Of a stretch of DNA of 64,000 nucleotides, positions 2,734 through 17,387 are shown in pieces. The first letter of the stretch is position 1. Each line of letters begins with the position of its first letter. The stretch covers positions 620,001 to 684,000 of the forward strand of contig NZ_JACIDJ010000002.1 in assembly GCF_014196305.1 (NCBI RefSeq). The letters are read 5' to 3'. Source of the DNA: Roseococcus suduntuyensis. GTDB taxonomy: Bacteria; Pseudomonadota; Alphaproteobacteria; Acetobacterales; Acetobacteraceae. The position numbers and the translations under genes were made by a program. The notes beneath the pieces are model-generated. The model was not told the DNA's origin and made no database searches. It saw only the letters and a program-made list of their open reading frames with translations.

Positions 2734-3602
2734 TCCGACCCCTCGCCTTCCTGGGCTGCCTCGCCTTCCTGGGCACGGGCTTCCACGTCTATTCCATCAA
2801 GGCCGAGGTGGACGCGGTGGAGGCGGAGCTGCGCCGCACGCTCCAGGCCACCGAGGCCGAGCGCGTGCAGACACGCACCCTCTCGGCCGAATGGGCGCGA
2901 CTGACCGACCAGGACCGGCTGCAGGCGCTGGCCTCGGCGCACCTGCCGGACCTGGTGCCCACCACGCCGCAGCAATTCCTGCGCGTGGCCGATGCCGGGC
3001 GGCGCCTGCCCGCGCCCGCGGATTTCGCGGGCGGCCCCAGCGCCTTCCGCACGCGCACCGATGTGGCGGCCGGGCCGGGCGAGGTGCTGGTTTTCTCCGC
3101 GCGCACCATGGTCGCTGACGCGCGGCCCGCCGCGACGTTTGCCGATGCGCGGCCTGCCGCGACGTTCTCGGATGCGCGGCCTGCCGCGACCTTCTCGGAC
3201 GCGCGGCCCGCCGTCGTGTCGGACGCGCCGGTCACGCCGGTGGCGATTCCGACGGCCGTCTCCGGGCCCGCACCGCAGCCCGTGGCGGCGGCGCCGGTCG
3301 TGGCCGCCTTGGCCGTCCCCACCCCCGTCATTGCCCCCACCCCTCGCGCCACCCCCGTGGCCGCGCGCCCGCCCGAACCCCGCCGCGCGCCGGAACCCCG
3401 CCCCGCCCCGCGCCTGGCCGAGGCCCCGGTTCGCCCGGCCCCGGCCCCGCGTGACGTCGCCGCCGCACGCCCCGCCGCCGACCCCGCGCTGCGCACGGCC
3501 ATGCATGTCCGCGCCGCGCCCATGGCGCCGCCCATGCCGCAGGCGGGCTCCATGCTGGGCGGCGGCGTCTCCCTGCCGCCCCCCGTGCCCTTCGGCCGAT
3601 GA
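2727..3602 (+). CDS. ftsL: Cell division protein FtsL with a long Pro/Ala-rich tail
   Basis: FtsL is a small bitopic divisome protein that joins FtsQ and FtsB and activates FtsWI. Residues 2-20 form one hydrophobic segment, and residues 24-60 ([14 protein letters not shown] onward) look like the periplasmic coiled coil. That completes a normal FtsL of about 100-120 residues, but this protein has 291: the rest is a low-complexity tail of Pro, Ala and Arg with four copies of a nine-residue repeat around residues 130-162. It overlaps rsmH by 7 bases and ftsI by 4. The tail is in frame through to the ftsI start, so a frameshift is unlikely. Identity rests mainly on gene order and topology. Confidence 0.85.
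3114..3212 (+). repeat. 27-bp tandem repeat inside ftsL
   Basis: Three full 27-bp units (3114-3140, 3141-3167, 3168-3194) and a partial fourth encode the nine-residue unit ADARPAATF, with A/S variation at the first position. Units differ at only a few bases, so the array looks recent or is kept uniform by slippage or recombination. The period is a multiple of three, so copy-number change keeps the frame. Confidence 0.9.
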
Positions 3603-13159: not shown

Positions 13160-14601
13160 TGCGCGCGCTCCCTCTCTCCATCGGGACCATCCACTTCGTC
13201 GGCATCGGCGGTATCGGCATGTCCGGCATCGCCGAGGTGCTGCACAATCTCGGCTATTCCGTGCAGGGCAGCGACATCGCGGAGGGCTACAACGTGGCCC
13301 GCCTGCGCGAGGCCGGCATTCCCGTCATGGTGGGCCATGCGGCCGAGAACCTGGGTGCGGCGCAGGTCGTCGTCGTCTCCACCGCCGTGAAGCGGGACAA
13401 CCCCGAGGTCCAGGCCGCGCGCGCCCGCCTGCTGCCCGTGGTGCGCCGCGCCGAGATGCTGGCGGAGCTGATGCGCCTCAAATGGGGCATCGCCGTCGGG
13501 GGCACCCATGGCAAGACGACGACGACGAGCCTCGTCGCCGCGGTGCTGGAGGCCGCGCGCCTCGACCCCACCGTCATCAATGGCGGCATCATCAACGCCT
13601 ATGGCACCAACACCCGCATGGGCACCGGCGAATGGATGGTGGTCGAGGCCGATGAGAGCGATGGCAGCTTCCTGCGCCTGCCCTCCACCGTCGCCATCGT
13701 CACCAACATGGACGCCGAGCACCTGGACCACTGGGGCACCGAGGAGGCGATGCGCGAGGGCTACGCGCAGTTCGTCGGCAACATCCCCTTCTACGGCTTC
13801 GCGGTGCTCTGCGTGGACCACCCGGCGGTGCAGGCCATGATCCCACGCCTGGATCGGCGCCTCGTCACCTACGGCTTCTCGCCCCAGGCCGATGTGCGGG
13901 CCGAGAAGCTGCTGACCGACCGCATGGGCGCGACCTTCGAGGTCTCCGTGCAGGACCGCGTGAGCAAGCGCGTCCGCACCATGAAGCCCTTCCGCCTGCC
14001 CATGCTGGGGCAGCACAATGTGCAGAACGCGCTGGCCGCCATCGCGGTCGGCGTCGAGATGGACGTGCCGGAGAACGTGATCCGCGAGGCTCTGGCCGGC
14101 TTCAAGGGCGTGAAGCGCCGCTTCACCCGCGTGGGCGAGACGGGTGGCGTCACCATCATTGACGACTACGGCCACCACCCGGTCGAGATCGCGGCCGTGC
14201 TCAAGGCCGCGCGGCAGGCGGGGGCGCGGGATGTCATCGCCGTTGTGCAGCCGCACCGCTATTCGCGGCTGCAACAGCTCTTCACCGAATTCTGCACCTG
14301 CATGAACGACGCCGGCACCGTGATCGTGGCCGATGTCTATGCGGCGGGCGAAGCGCCCATCGAGGGCATGGACAAGGATGGGCTGGTGGAGGGGCTGCGC
14401 GCGCGCGGCCATCGCAGCGTGGTGCCGCTGGCCGCCCCGGACCACCTGCCGGAGATGATCCACGCCATCGCCCGCCCCGGCGACTATGTCGTGTGCCTGG
14501 GGGCCGGCAGCATCACCAACTGGGCGCATGCGCTGCCGCAGCAACTGGGCGAGTTGCAGGCCAAGGCGGGCGCGCGTGTCGCGCCGCTGCGCCGTGCTTG
14601 A
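13159..14601 (+). CDS. murC: UDP-N-acetylmuramate:L-alanine ligase
   Basis: 480 residues; first amino-acid ligase of stem-peptide synthesis, joining L-alanine to UDP-MurNAc. It has the N-terminal glycine-rich loop [17 protein letters not shown] (residues 12-28), the P-loop [11 protein letters not shown] near 115-125, the central ESDGSF block near 171 and [12 protein letters not shown] near 332 in the C-terminal domain. The ATG at 13159 was chosen because a full-length protein follows; the ATG 83 bases upstream starts the duplicate mini-ORF and stops before reaching it. murB follows after 4 bases. Confidence 0.97.
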
Positions 14602-14605
14602 CGCC

Positions 14606-15478
14606 ATGCCCAAGCTGCGCGGCCGTCTCGACTTCGACGCGCCGCTGGCCCCCTTCACCTGGTTCCGCGTGGGCGGGCCGGCGGAGCGGCTGGCACGCCC
14701 GGCCGATGCCGAGGACCTGCTGGCGCTGCTGGCCGAGGAGGCGGGGCCGGTGACGGTGCTGGGCGCGGCGTCCAACCTCATCATCCGCGATGGCGGCATT
14801 CGGGGCCTGGTGCTGCGCCTGCCCGCGCGCGGGTTCGGCGCCGTCGAGGTGCAGTCCGATGGCGTGGTGGCGGGCGCGGCCGCGCTGGATGCGACCATCG
14901 CCGAGCACGCGGCGGCGGCGGGGCTGTCGGGGCTGGAATTCCTCTGCGGCATTCCGGGCAGCCTGGGCGGCGCGGTGGCGATGAATGCCGGCGCCTATGG
15001 GCGCGAAATACGTGACGTGTTGGACTGGGCAGAGATTGCCACGCCCAACGGGCTGCTGCGGCTGGATGCGGCGGGGCTGCGCCTGGACTACCGGCATGCG
15101 GAACTGCCCGCGCGCGGCGTGGTGGTGCGCGCCCGGCTGCGCGCCGAACCCGGCGATGCTTCCGCCATCGCCGCCCGCATGGCGGACATCCGCGCGGCGC
15201 GCGAGGCCACGCAGCCCGTGCGCGCGCGCACCGGCGGCAGCACCTTCCGCAACCCGGAAGGCCACAAGGCCTGGGCGCTGATTGACGCCGCCGGTTGCCG
15301 GGGCCTCACGCTGGGCGGCGCGCAGGTGAGCGAGAAGCACTGCAACTTCCTGCTCAACACCGGCGGCGCCACGGCGGCGGAGCTTGAGGCGCTGGGCGAG
15401 GCGGTGCGCGCGCGGGTGCTGGCGCATTCGGGCATCGCGCTGGAATGGGAAATCAAGCGGCTGGGAGAGGTTGCATGA
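14606..15478 (+). CDS. murB: UDP-N-acetylenolpyruvoylglucosamine reductase
   Basis: 290 residues; FAD- and NADPH-dependent enzyme that reduces the enolpyruvyl ether to give UDP-MurNAc. FAD-binding segments are FTWFRVGGPAERL near 16-28, LGAASNLIIRDGG near 52 and GIPGSLGGAVAMNAGAYG near 115. TGGSTFRNPEGHKAW near 210 carries the serine expected as proton donor. The ATG at 14606 was chosen; an in-frame GTG at 14594 inside the murC end would add four residues. The stop overlaps the first ATG of the tandem leader units upstream of ddl. Confidence 0.95.
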   Translation: MPKLRGRLDFDAPLAPFTWFRVGGPAERLARPADAEDLLALLAEEAGPVTVLGAASNLIIRDGGIRGLVLRLPARGFGAVEVQSDGVVAGAAALDATIAEHAAAAGLSGLEFLCGIPGSLGGAVAMNAGAYGREIRDVLDWAEIATPNGLLRLDAAGLRLDYRHAELPARGVVVRARLRAEPGDASAIAARMADIRAAREATQPVRARTGGSTFRNPEGHKAWALIDAAGCRGLTLGGAQVSEKHCNFLLNTGGATAAELEALGEAVRARVLAHSGIALEWEIKRLGEVA

Positions 15479-15534
15479 TGGCCACCGATTCACGGCTCCG
15501 GGCCAAGGCCCTCCGCCGATCGGGGGCGGCATGA
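15475..15534 (+). CDS. Leader mini-ORF 1 upstream of ddl (19 aa)
   Basis: Encodes MMATDSRLRAKALRRSGAA, a short basic peptide. Its ATG overlaps the murB stop (ATGATG) and its TGA overlaps the start of the second mini-ORF (ATGA). GGGAGAGG about 5 bases upstream is a plausible ribosome binding site. No homolog is recognised. The likely job, if translated, is to pass ribosomes from murB towards ddl. Confidence 0.45.
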   Translation: MMATDSRLRAKALRRSGAA

Positions 15535-15586
15535 TGGCCACCGATTCACGGCTCCGGGCCGCGGCCCTCCGCCGATCGGGGGCGGC
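15475..15586 (+). repeat. Two tandem 56-bp units between murB and ddl
   Basis: Units 15475-15530 and 15531-15586 are identical except for AA versus GC at one dinucleotide (54 of 56 bases). Each begins ATGATGGCC, ends GATCGGGGGCGGC, and is followed directly by ATGA. The first unit starts on the murB stop and the second ends on the ddl start. Each unit carries its own start, a G-rich sequence before the next start, and a stop that overlaps that start. Because 56 is not a multiple of three, the encoded peptides use successive frames. Confidence 0.95.
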
Positions 15587-15590
15587 ATGA
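15531..15590 (+). CDS. Leader mini-ORF 2 upstream of ddl (19 aa)
   Basis: Encodes MMATDSRLRAAALRRSGAA, differing from mini-ORF 1 only at residue 11 (A for K). Its start overlaps the stop of mini-ORF 1 and its stop overlaps the ddl start, both as ATGA. GGGGGCGG lies just before both this start and the ddl start. It is part of the same tandem duplication. Confidence 0.45.
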   Translation: MMATDSRLRAAALRRSGAA

Positions 15591-16507
15591 CCAAGGTGGC
15601 CGTTCTCCATGGCGGCGTCTCGGCCGAGCGCGAGGTGAGCCTCGCCACCGGCCGCCAGGTGATCCCGGCGCTGGAGGCGGCGGGCTTCACCGTCCTGCCC
15701 ATCGAGGTGACCGAGGATCTCGGCGCCCTCATCGCCACGCTGCGTGCCGAGCGGCCGGACGCCGTGTTCAACGCGTTGCATGGCCGCTTCGGCGAAGATG
15801 GCTGCGTCCAGGGTGTGCTGGACTGGCTCGGTTTGCCCTACACGCATTCGGGCGTGCGCGCCTCCTCCGTCGCCATGGACAAGGGCGCGGCCAAGGCCGT
15901 GTTCCAGGCGCATGGGCTGCCGGTGGCGCAGCACCGCATCGTCTCCCCGGAGGAGCTGGAGCAGGAAGACCCCCTGCCCCGCCCCTATGTGGTGAAGCCG
16001 GTGGATGAGGGCAGCTCGGTCGGCGTCACCATCCTGCGCACGGGCGACAACCGCCGCGCGGAGGTCGCGCGGAGCTGGCGCTTCGGCAGCCGCATCATGG
16101 CCGAAAGCTACGTCCCCGGCCGCGAGATCACGGTGGCCATCATGGGCGACCGGCCGCTGGGTGTGACCGAGATCGCGACCGGCCACGCCTTCTACGACTA
16201 CGAGGCCAAGTATGCGGAAGGCGGCAGCCGCCACCTCCTGCCCGCGCCCATCCATGCCGACATCGCGGCCGAGGCGATGCGCGTGGCCCTGGCCGCCCAC
16301 CAGGCGCTGGGCTGCCGCGGCGTCTCCCGCGCGGATTTCCGCTATGACGACACGGCGGGCGAACCCGGGCGCCTCGTGCTGCTGGAGGTGAACACCCAGC
16401 CGGGCATGACGCCCACCTCGCTGCTGCCCGAACAGGCGGCGCACCAGGGCATTCCCTTCCCCGAGCTCTGCGCCTGGATGGTGCGGGAGGCGCGGCATGG
16501 CGCGTGA
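15587..16507 (+). CDS. ddl: D-alanine--D-alanine ligase
   Basis: 306 residues; ATP-grasp enzyme that makes the D-Ala-D-Ala dipeptide used by MurF. It has VAVLHGGVSAEREVSLATG at residues 4-22, NALHGRFGEDGCVQG near 62 (family HGxxGEDG motif), the ATP-binding VVKPVDEGSSVGV near 136 and the metal-binding LLEVNTQPGMTPTSL near 265. Length is typical of DdlB. Its ATG is the terminal ATGA of the two-unit leader array. It overlaps ftsQ by 11 bases. Confidence 0.97.
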   Translation: MTKVAVLHGGVSAEREVSLATGRQVIPALEAAGFTVLPIEVTEDLGALIATLRAERPDAVFNALHGRFGEDGCVQGVLDWLGLPYTHSGVRASSVAMDKGAAKAVFQAHGLPVAQHRIVSPEELEQEDPLPRPYVVKPVDEGSSVGVTILRTGDNRRAEVARSWRFGSRIMAESYVPGREITVAIMGDRPLGVTEIATGHAFYDYEAKYAEGGSRHLLPAPIHADIAAEAMRVALAAHQALGCRGVSRADFRYDDTAGEPGRLVLLEVNTQPGMTPTSLLPEQAAHQGIPFPELCAWMVREARHGA

Positions 16508-17387
16508 GCCGCGCAAGAAGGTCGCCGTCCGCGCCCGCGCCGCCGCACCCCCGCCGCGCCGGCCTTCCGCCGCCGCGCTGTGGTTTCGCCGGCAGCGGCG
16601 CATCTTGCGCGGCATGGGTTTTGGTTTGCTGGGGCTGGGCGCGCTCGCGGGCCTGGCCTGGGGTGTGGCGCGGATGGACCCCGAGGCGCGGGCGCGGGAT
16701 ACGGCGCTGGCGCTGGTGAATCTGGGGCGCGACCATGGCCTCGTCGTGCAGGAAATCCGCGTCGAGGGGCGGGAATTCACCCCGCGCGAGGCGCTGCTGA
16801 CCGCCATCGGCACCGTGCCCGGCGATGCCATCCTGGATTTCGACCCGGATGCCGCGCGCACGCGACTGATGGAGATCGCCTGGGTGCGGGGCGCGCATGT
16901 GGAACGCCGCCTGCCCGGCACCATCCTGGTGCGGCTGGAGGAACGCCAGGCCTTCGCCATCTGGCAGCAGGACGGGCGCTATTCCGTCATTGACCGCAGC
17001 GGCAACGAGATGGCGAGCGAGCGCTTCGAGGCCTTCGGCCCCCTGCCCTTCGTGGTGGGCGCCGGCGCCAACACCGCCGCCGCCTCCATCGTGGACGTGC
17101 TGCGCCGGCACCCCGCCATCGCGGACCGGGTGGAGGCCGCGGTGCGCGTCTCCGAACGGCGCTGGAATCTGCGCCTGCACAATGGCGCCGACGTGCTGCT
17201 GCCCGAGGGGCATGAGGAAGCGGCGGTGGAACGCCTCGCCACGCTGCAGGCGCAGGACCGGCTGCTCGACCGGCCGCTCGCGGTGGTGGACATGCGCCTG
17301 CCCGACCGCCTGGTGGTCCGCATGCCGCCCGAGGCCCCCGCCACGCCGCCCGCCACCCCCGCGCAAGCCCGGAGACAACGTGGATGA
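16497..17387 (+). CDS. ftsQ: Cell division protein FtsQ
   Basis: 296 residues; bitopic divisome protein that recruits FtsL and FtsB. A basic, Pro-rich cytoplasmic region of about 37 residues is followed by one transmembrane segment near 39-58 (MGFGLLGLGALAGLAWGVA), then a POTRA domain beginning VQEIRVEGREFTPREALL near 83. The FtsQ beta domain follows, with LEERQAFAIWQ. It overlaps ddl by 11 bases and ftsA by ATGA. Confidence 0.94.
   Translation: MAREPRKKVAVRARAAAPPPRRPSAAALWFRRQRRILRGMGFGLLGLGALAGLAWGVARMDPEARARDTALALVNLGRDHGLVVQEIRVEGREFTPREALLTAIGTVPGDAILDFDPDAARTRLMEIAWVRGAHVERRLPGTILVRLEERQAFAIWQQDGRYSVIDRSGNEMASERFEAFGPLPFVVGAGANTAAASIVDVLRRHPAIADRVEAAVRVSERRWNLRLHNGADVLLPEGHEEAAVERLATLQAQDRLLDRPLAVVDMRLPDRLVVRMPPEAPATPPATPAQARRQRG

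Follow-up and report, generated by a model that had tools for sequence, protein, structure and literature searches.

The two 56-bp tandem units which separate murB from ddl in Roseococcus suduntuyensis probably represent the relay-competent form, tolerated between coupled genes, of a REP-like hairpin family; in this form, short relay open reading frames (ORFs) carried by the repeat would keep the translation of the flanking genes coupled. The units lie in the window, i.e. the whole 64,000-nucleotide stretch of DNA which was analysed, and the locus comprises the following features.

14486..15478, forward strand: murB, the upstream gene (sequence; Pfam MurB_C, 3.4e-33)
15476..15478, forward strand: murB stop codon TGA, inside the ATGA at 15475-15478 (the gene end reads ...GCATGA)
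15475..15530, forward strand: repeat unit 1, 56 bp (sequence, Tandem Repeats Finder and unit comparison)
15475..15534, forward strand: relay ORF 1, 19 aa, with its start in the murB stop (ATGA) and its stop in the start of ORF 2 (strict chain)
15487..15523, forward strand: hairpin core 1, GATTCACG...GATCGG (family pattern and family stem covariation)
15522..15526, forward strand: GGGGG, Shine-Dalgarno-like, in the 3' arm of the predicted outer stem, preceding the ATGA at 15531
15531..15586, forward strand: repeat unit 2, 56 bp, 54/56 identical to unit 1 (Tandem Repeats Finder and unit comparison)
15531..15590, forward strand: relay ORF 2, 19 aa, with its stop in the ddl start (strict chain)
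15543..15579, forward strand: hairpin core 2 (family pattern and family stem covariation)
15578..15582, forward strand: GGGGG, Shine-Dalgarno-like, preceding the ddl ATGA
15587..16507, forward strand: ddl, D-Ala-D-Ala ligase (Pfam Dala_Dala_lig_C, 8.3e-41)

Besides MurB and the D-Ala-D-Ala ligase, FtsQ and FtsA are backed by Pfam, and the best Ddl match among named relatives is that of R. thiosulfatophilus RB-3 (97%). Tandem Repeats Finder places the array at 15473-15590 with a period of 56 and 96% matches, and two differences were counted between the units, as an earlier note on this DNA had stated. The chain which it had described, from the murB stop through two 19-residue ORFs to the ddl start, was also recovered with an ATGA at every step: the ORFs translate as MMATDSRLRAKALRRSGAA and MMATDSRLRAAALRRSGAA, each followed by its stop, and the ddl ATG at 15587 overlaps the second of these stops via the ATGA at 15587-15590. 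The G-rich site which the note assigned to each unit is present as GGGGG, but it belongs to a predicted hairpin stem. Elsewhere in the window, a 27-bp tandem repeat (positions 3120-3213, 3.5 copies, 89% matches) appears by eye to be unrelated to the hairpin family.

In its own genome the segment 15440-15640 is matched 14 times, counting the segment itself, and the pattern GATTCACG-N10-40-GATCRG has 171 exact matches there (80 forward and 91 reverse, with part of their places listed) against none for the reversed control, which puts the ddl repeat beyond chance. In a survey of 120 genomes including the own one, at least 10 family matches were counted in 17 of the 20 genus mates, with a maximum of 91 in G003. 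Outside the genus (99 genomes), G035 has 107 matches, four genomes (G044, G055, G070 and G085) have 11 to 22, and the other 94 have at most eight; the reversed control of this survey, which employed a looser pattern, gave one match in each of four genomes. G070, which belongs to another genus, also carries a separate dispersed repeat of about 53 bp, starting with GATTCACGCGGCGGATCG and ending with GATCGG, in more than 10 near-identical copies.

Among 197 distinct units drawn from the fetched loci, the outer stem pair (-1,4) is C-G in 149 and T-A in 42, while the pair (-4,7) is G-C in 126 and C-G in 57, being paired in 190 units as against 111 after shuffling. Covariation of this kind marks the family as a hairpin whose bulge is conserved. 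When the two ddl units are folded as single sequences, the gain over shuffled sequences is small (z of -1.65 and -0.68); in the predicted fold, the AUG pairs with the CAU of the next AUGA and the GGGGG is buried. In a broad sense the family is REP-like, with many copies (171), palindromic structure (the covariation) and extragenic position (placement of 63 own-genome arrays at gene ends), and the two ddl units are most likely members of an Acetobacteraceae hairpin family of this kind, located just downstream of stop codons.

The REP sequences of the GTAG and CGTC super-families, as described in the available text of PMC3733652, are similarly short imperfect palindromes present in many extragenic copies near stop codons, and the accessible part of PMC12306157 reports that REPs within 15 nt of a stop affect translation in E. 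coli. Unlike those super-families, the present one has the core GATTCACG...GATCRG, is commonly arranged in head-to-tail arrays (own-genome catalogue) and occurs in a genome where no Y1 transposase was found. No GTAG tag stands beside the stem, the conserved flanks being GATTCACG and GATCRG. The portion of PMC3733652 consulted gives the CGTC super-family a CGTC/TGTC/CCTC tag, an 8-9 bp stem, a 4-5 nt loop and a CCA-like tail, and reports CGTC repeats as missing in Acetobacteraceae; compared by eye with this published description, the flanks differ. Mobilisation as a RAYT-dependent REP was rejected on the search for Y1_Tnp (PF01797), which gave no match in the own genome (G000) and was positive in five of 14 control genomes. 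A curated Rfam RNA family was discarded as well, with no Rfam matches for window positions 14400-16600 and 16 further loci.

The placement of the family was described on a catalogue of 63 own-genome arrays, which includes the listed core places and all places with the RTGA pattern, so that coupled arrays are over-represented: 26 lie between convergent and 15 between codirectional genes. Where the upstream gene is codirectional with the element, the distance from its stop to the core is 6-23 nt in 35 of 44 cases. The downstream gene is opposing in 42 arrays, and in 18 of them, e.g. L044, L249 and L258, its stop falls exactly 3 nt past the core; in the sequences inspected, this stop, a TAG on the other strand, seems to come from the element tail GATCRGACGCTA. 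The 15 codirectional arrays comprise nine strict relays with ATG or GTG starts, one (L047) which is strict with TTG only, and five with no chain.

The members outside relays are positioned at gene ends, in the place of a terminator or 3'-end hairpin, so that a copy left untranslated within an operon could have polar effects. The relay ORFs might accordingly act as a shield, with translation of the hairpin preventing Rho or a hairpin-induced stop from cutting downstream transcription. We regard this reading as unlikely, though still to be weighed: no TTTT occurs within 20 nt after, and no AAAA within 20 nt before, any of the 63 own-genome arrays, which are therefore not classic intrinsic terminators, a candidate which was rejected on the same count of TTTT.

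The preferred reading is a relay which would maintain coupling. Cores with an RTGA at most 16 nt downstream were searched in the own genome, where 16 matches were found against none in the reversed control, and in the 120 genomes. A first set was formed from all such places in the own genome and its 20 genus mates plus three in G035, giving 81 arrays, of which 60 were codirectional with enough flank according to a codon-usage score trained on five window genes. A chain was called strict when each next start stood at -1 (RTGA) or +2 (TGATG) of the preceding stop until the downstream gene was reached. Such chains were found in 55 of these 60 arrays, preselected for the downstream RTGA and including the window array, and in 51 when TTG starts were disallowed. 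Four arrays (L186, L198, L228 and L232) have no strict chain, and at L217 a gene runs through what is a chance match inside it. The relay ORF is separate in 54 of the 55 strict chains; in the remaining one, L200, the upstream gene continues through the single unit, and the locus counts as strict for this reason alone. On the opposite strand, too, the element has a start-stop overlap, as a GTGA is invariably present in the reverse complement of the conserved core (CGTGAATC).

How much weight the chain test can bear was assessed by altering the first unit's loop in silico in the 55 strict arrays. After deletion of one base, nine stay strict, 45 are broken and one is read through, whereas after insertion of one base 54 of 55 still score as strict, which we read as the relay ORF fusing in frame with the next gene. 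The chain test alone thus has a generous null, and weight was placed on a phase test instead. The selection of arrays by an RTGA within 16 nt is biased towards coupled junctions, but not towards any frame.

The upstream stop precedes the first exact unit by no more than 40 nt in 50 of the 60 loci. Of these, 35 have a single unit, and 33 of the 35 could be used for the test, as the unit has an overlapping start on its upstream side and an RTGA start on its downstream side. With 12-20 nt before the core and 35-57 nt from core to stop, the upstream and downstream phases fit each other in 31 of the 33, against a mean of 16.0 after shuffling, and none of 100000 shuffles reached 31. The two exceptions, L198 and L232, are in neither relay nor fusion phase. 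Common ancestry of units or cassettes inflates such agreement, and grouping of orthologous junctions (36 groups) removes this only partly; when each group was represented by one single-unit locus, the phases agreed in 20 of 21 (mean of 11.1 after shuffling; none of 100000 shuffles as high).

All three frames of the core GATTCACG are in use among the 33 loci, which suggests that keeping the coupling, not the peptide, is likely the point. That functional micropeptides of about 19 aa are made from the units is accordingly very improbable, even if most relay ORFs share one frame and a recurrent ADSRLR...ALRRSEAA-like sequence. Other loci read the same DNA in the RFT or PIH frame, several units fuse into one ORF at some loci, and the units at ddl differ from those at a second junction, hisG-hisD, by a stem-compensating change which, read by eye, leaves the codons synonymous. 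The peptide as main function was rejected on the use of three reading frames.

Tandem arrays obey a corresponding rule of period. Among 18 tandem relay arrays of the first set, with the orthologous pair L070/L219 counted twice and L047 dependent on TTG, the period is 0 mod 3 in 14, every one a single ORF, and 2 mod 3 in four (59, 56, 62 and 59). A period of 1 mod 3 is absent from these 18 and present in nine of 23 non-relay own-genome arrays (Fisher p 0.0025). With a period of 2 mod 3 the unit boundary must carry an RTGA, because the stop reaches one base further than the next start codon, and over both sets described here all seven self-chaining arrays have it, the other 15 of 22 being fused ORFs. 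The earlier note had presented coupling as maintained even though 56 is not divisible by three; the chain is kept, and 56, being 2 mod 3, is exactly what chaining from ATGA to ATGA needs, and by this arithmetic it is a required number, not an awkward one.

A second set was obtained with a narrower pattern, including the Shine-Dalgarno-like GGRGG, over 397 family genomes of 102 genera; it matched 22 genomes in six genera, with none for the reversed control. All 14 previously unused junctions outside the genus, from five other genera, are codirectional and strict relays. They are not fully independent, as one downstream gene is common to L304, L315 and the first-set locus L235, L307 is similar to L218, also of the first set (78%), and L308 shares its downstream gene with L316 (77%), leaving 10 junction groups which are new relative to the first set. 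The four two-unit arrays among them have periods of 59, 56 and 56, which are self-chaining, and 57, a fused ORF. The earlier note knew of no described system of the ddl type; the cassette is not restricted to ddl, with 55 and 14 strict chains in six genera. An assembly or alignment artefact, or a chance ATGA overlap with repeats, is hardly credible, notwithstanding the use of draft assemblies and of incomplete genomes such as G017 (57% complete). The same rule holds in genomes up to 100% complete and in six genera, and the reversed controls gave no matches for any but the looser pattern.

The relay units also differ in composition. A motif of the GGAGG/GGGGG type is found at the 3' end in 49 of 75 relay units and two of 124 others, and the stem pair (-4,7) is C-G in 54 of the 75 and four of the 124. 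Through this change the usual outer stem GCG/CGC becomes GCC/GGC, so that pairing is kept and a Shine-Dalgarno sequence is made. Masking of this sequence as a property specific to relays is unsupported, the predicted paired fraction of the region being 0.78 in relay and 0.75 in non-relay units, and its masking as a switch is only an inference from predicted structure.

This composition bears on the closest alternative, namely that the repeat spreads by itself and that within operons only relay-competent insertions survive purifying selection. It shares the relay mechanism with the preferred reading and differs from it on benefit, the relay avoiding damage without conferring any advantage. Such a neutral passenger is quite possible, if a little short of likely. 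In the own genome the majority of copies are not part of relays but closely follow stop codons or separate convergent genes, relays are distributed patchily among species, and the peptide is not conserved, with three frames in use. Yet the concentration of the Shine-Dalgarno-like motif and its stem change in relay units looks like adaptation of the unit, and the relay sub-class recurs in six genera.

Copy number was compared across relatives using one genome per species, some of them drafts in which units may be miscounted, with genes called by a small codon model. A readable Ddl was available for 18 of the 21 genomes of the genus. In the 300 nt preceding the ddl start, the own genome has two sense cores, and G014 and G017 have one and five on the opposite strand; the other 15 have none, including the two closest relatives, G003 and G004, whose Ddl is 97-98% identical and for which the units are evidently not needed. 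At 80 named loci, scored on the sense strand with L139 cut at a contig edge, no GATTCAC occurs within 190 nt upstream. In G014 (L170) the N-terminus of Ddl includes the opposite-strand unit as an in-frame fusion, and in G017 (L175) the five units form a strict chain of MurB, ATGA, 53 aa, ATGA, 17 aa, ATGA and Ddl. The unit-free junction of G003 (ATGAGCGCCACG, L168) resembles ATGAGCGCCACC, the upstream flank of the unit at L228 in the same genome, and is possibly an excision scar. The earlier note would have had its idea refuted by a fixed single unit or none in all relatives, together with an unchanged Ddl level. As to unit number, the class as a whole varies beyond this; at murB-ddl itself, however, the two closest relatives lack units and only G014 and G017 share the feature, with opposite-strand units.

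At the junction of hisG and hisD (both identified by Pfam), an alignment-anchored count over 19 genomes gave two sense cores in G000, one each in G003 and G004, and zero in the remaining 16. Of the empty junctions, those of G010 and G018 are ATGA overlaps and the others are built differently; in G009 (L274) a single core-like word stands on the opposite strand within 300 nt upstream of hisD. Counts of exact cores differ at other orthologous junctions as well: two and one (L052/L083 and L055/L233), three and one (L213/L200), three, one and one (L193/L225/L220), three and two (L070/L219), and two in L194 against one in each of four loci. L200 (G005), where the upstream gene reads through the single unit as a C-terminal fusion, is orthologous to a three-unit relay ORF in G006 (L213). 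The proposal that each unit is self-contained, and can be gained or lost without breaking the coupling, agrees with these differences between species, in which the chain is retained.

Differing unit numbers, e.g. zero, one or two at hisG-hisD, would also suit a rheostat, as proposed in the earlier note, in which each unit adds a lossy termination-reinitiation step and its gain or loss tunes the downstream protein. In the seven arrays which are true multi-step chains, a restart per unit could lower output stepwise. We consider this reading rather unlikely, as 15 of the 22 tandem relay arrays are read as a single fused ORF, where further units bring no additional restart and copy-number tuning is implausible, and the nine own-genome downstream genes share no single function, two of them being ABC transporter ATPases.

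The hisG-hisD junction is also the best other match of the ddl stretch (91% identity, query 34-151). The similarity spans GCATGATGG to GGCATGA and goes no further, and the stem-compensating, synonymous difference noted above is a double change which sets the two units at ddl apart from those at hisG-hisD; this fits copying of a whole cassette between the two junctions, in either direction. At L045, where an isochorismatase-like gene lies behind a luciferase-like one, a single unit is flanked by a 21-nt direct repeat, as would be left by target duplication.

For reinitiation in gene pairs of E. coli and Haloferax volcanii (H. volcanii), the available text of PMC10666635 reports a need for an overlap or a very short gap, with a loss of 80-90% across a 38-nt gap for two E. 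coli pairs and a complete loss for the third; reporters in the accessible part of PMC6728339 showed termination-reinitiation coupling at overlapping pairs. Given the effect of 38 nt, an untranslated insert of about 50-60 nt between coupled genes should break their coupling. A relay would be the simplest device to repair it, with the phase and period rules as the expected trace of selection. In a relay-class unit the start overlaps the upstream stop, the ORF passes through the hairpin, the stop overlaps the next start, and the 3' arm of the unit's own stem often carries the GGAGG or GGGGG. A ribosome finishing murB would restart on ORF 1, melt the hairpin, terminate at the ATGA and restart on ORF 2 and then on ddl. 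This handover would proceed by termination-reinitiation, by unmasking of the Shine-Dalgarno sequence or by both; coupling would survive a 112-bp insertion which otherwise would break it, and selection to keep coupling would enforce the frame.

The coupling itself resembles known systems. Pairs with termination-reinitiation at ATGA or TGATG overlaps (PMC6728339 and PMC10666635, in the text available) have the same 4- and 1-nt overlaps, here found at each step in 55/60 and 14/14 arrays, a Shine-Dalgarno sequence inside the upstream ORF and, presumably, the same ribosome handover. Unlike in such plain pairs, a hairpin repeat here stands between two copies of the coupling site, and ORFs encoded by the repeat span the gap; the accessible text of PMC10666635 contains none of the words "repeat", "insertion" or "hairpin". 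Rickettsia palindromic elements and enterobacterial RU elements (available part of PMC2759123) are likewise read as protein, but they fuse into a gene, whereas the units described here mostly form separate mini-ORFs with their own start and stop, the Ddl N-terminus of G014 and L200 being of the fusion type. The synthetic bicistronic design (PMC5995908, in part) likewise obtains coupled translation of a target gene from a short cistron placed ahead of it; unlike this design, the ddl-type relay is natural, repeat-borne, located between two genes and can be tandem. In a literature search over titles and abstract starts, with subscription papers mostly outside its coverage, no description of repeat-borne translational relays was found, and the best 20 of 467 papers containing the core letters are unrelated by title or abstract start.

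The family suggests how a repeat could be accommodated at the most closely packed operon junctions while the translational link stays intact, the period being strictly confined to 0 or 2 mod 3. More tentatively, and with some doubt on our part, the unit may be a portable, self-chaining relay which is copied between junctions and multiplied in place, rewiring translational links with an evolvable number of units. The rule of periods makes directly testable both the passage of ribosomes through a hairpin between coupled genes and a possible setting of protein ratios by the natural copy series (zero, one and two units at hisG-hisD; none, two, and one and five on the opposite strand at murB-ddl). 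Moreover, the relays would constitute a large natural set of ultrashort ORFs, which gene finders are expected to have missed.
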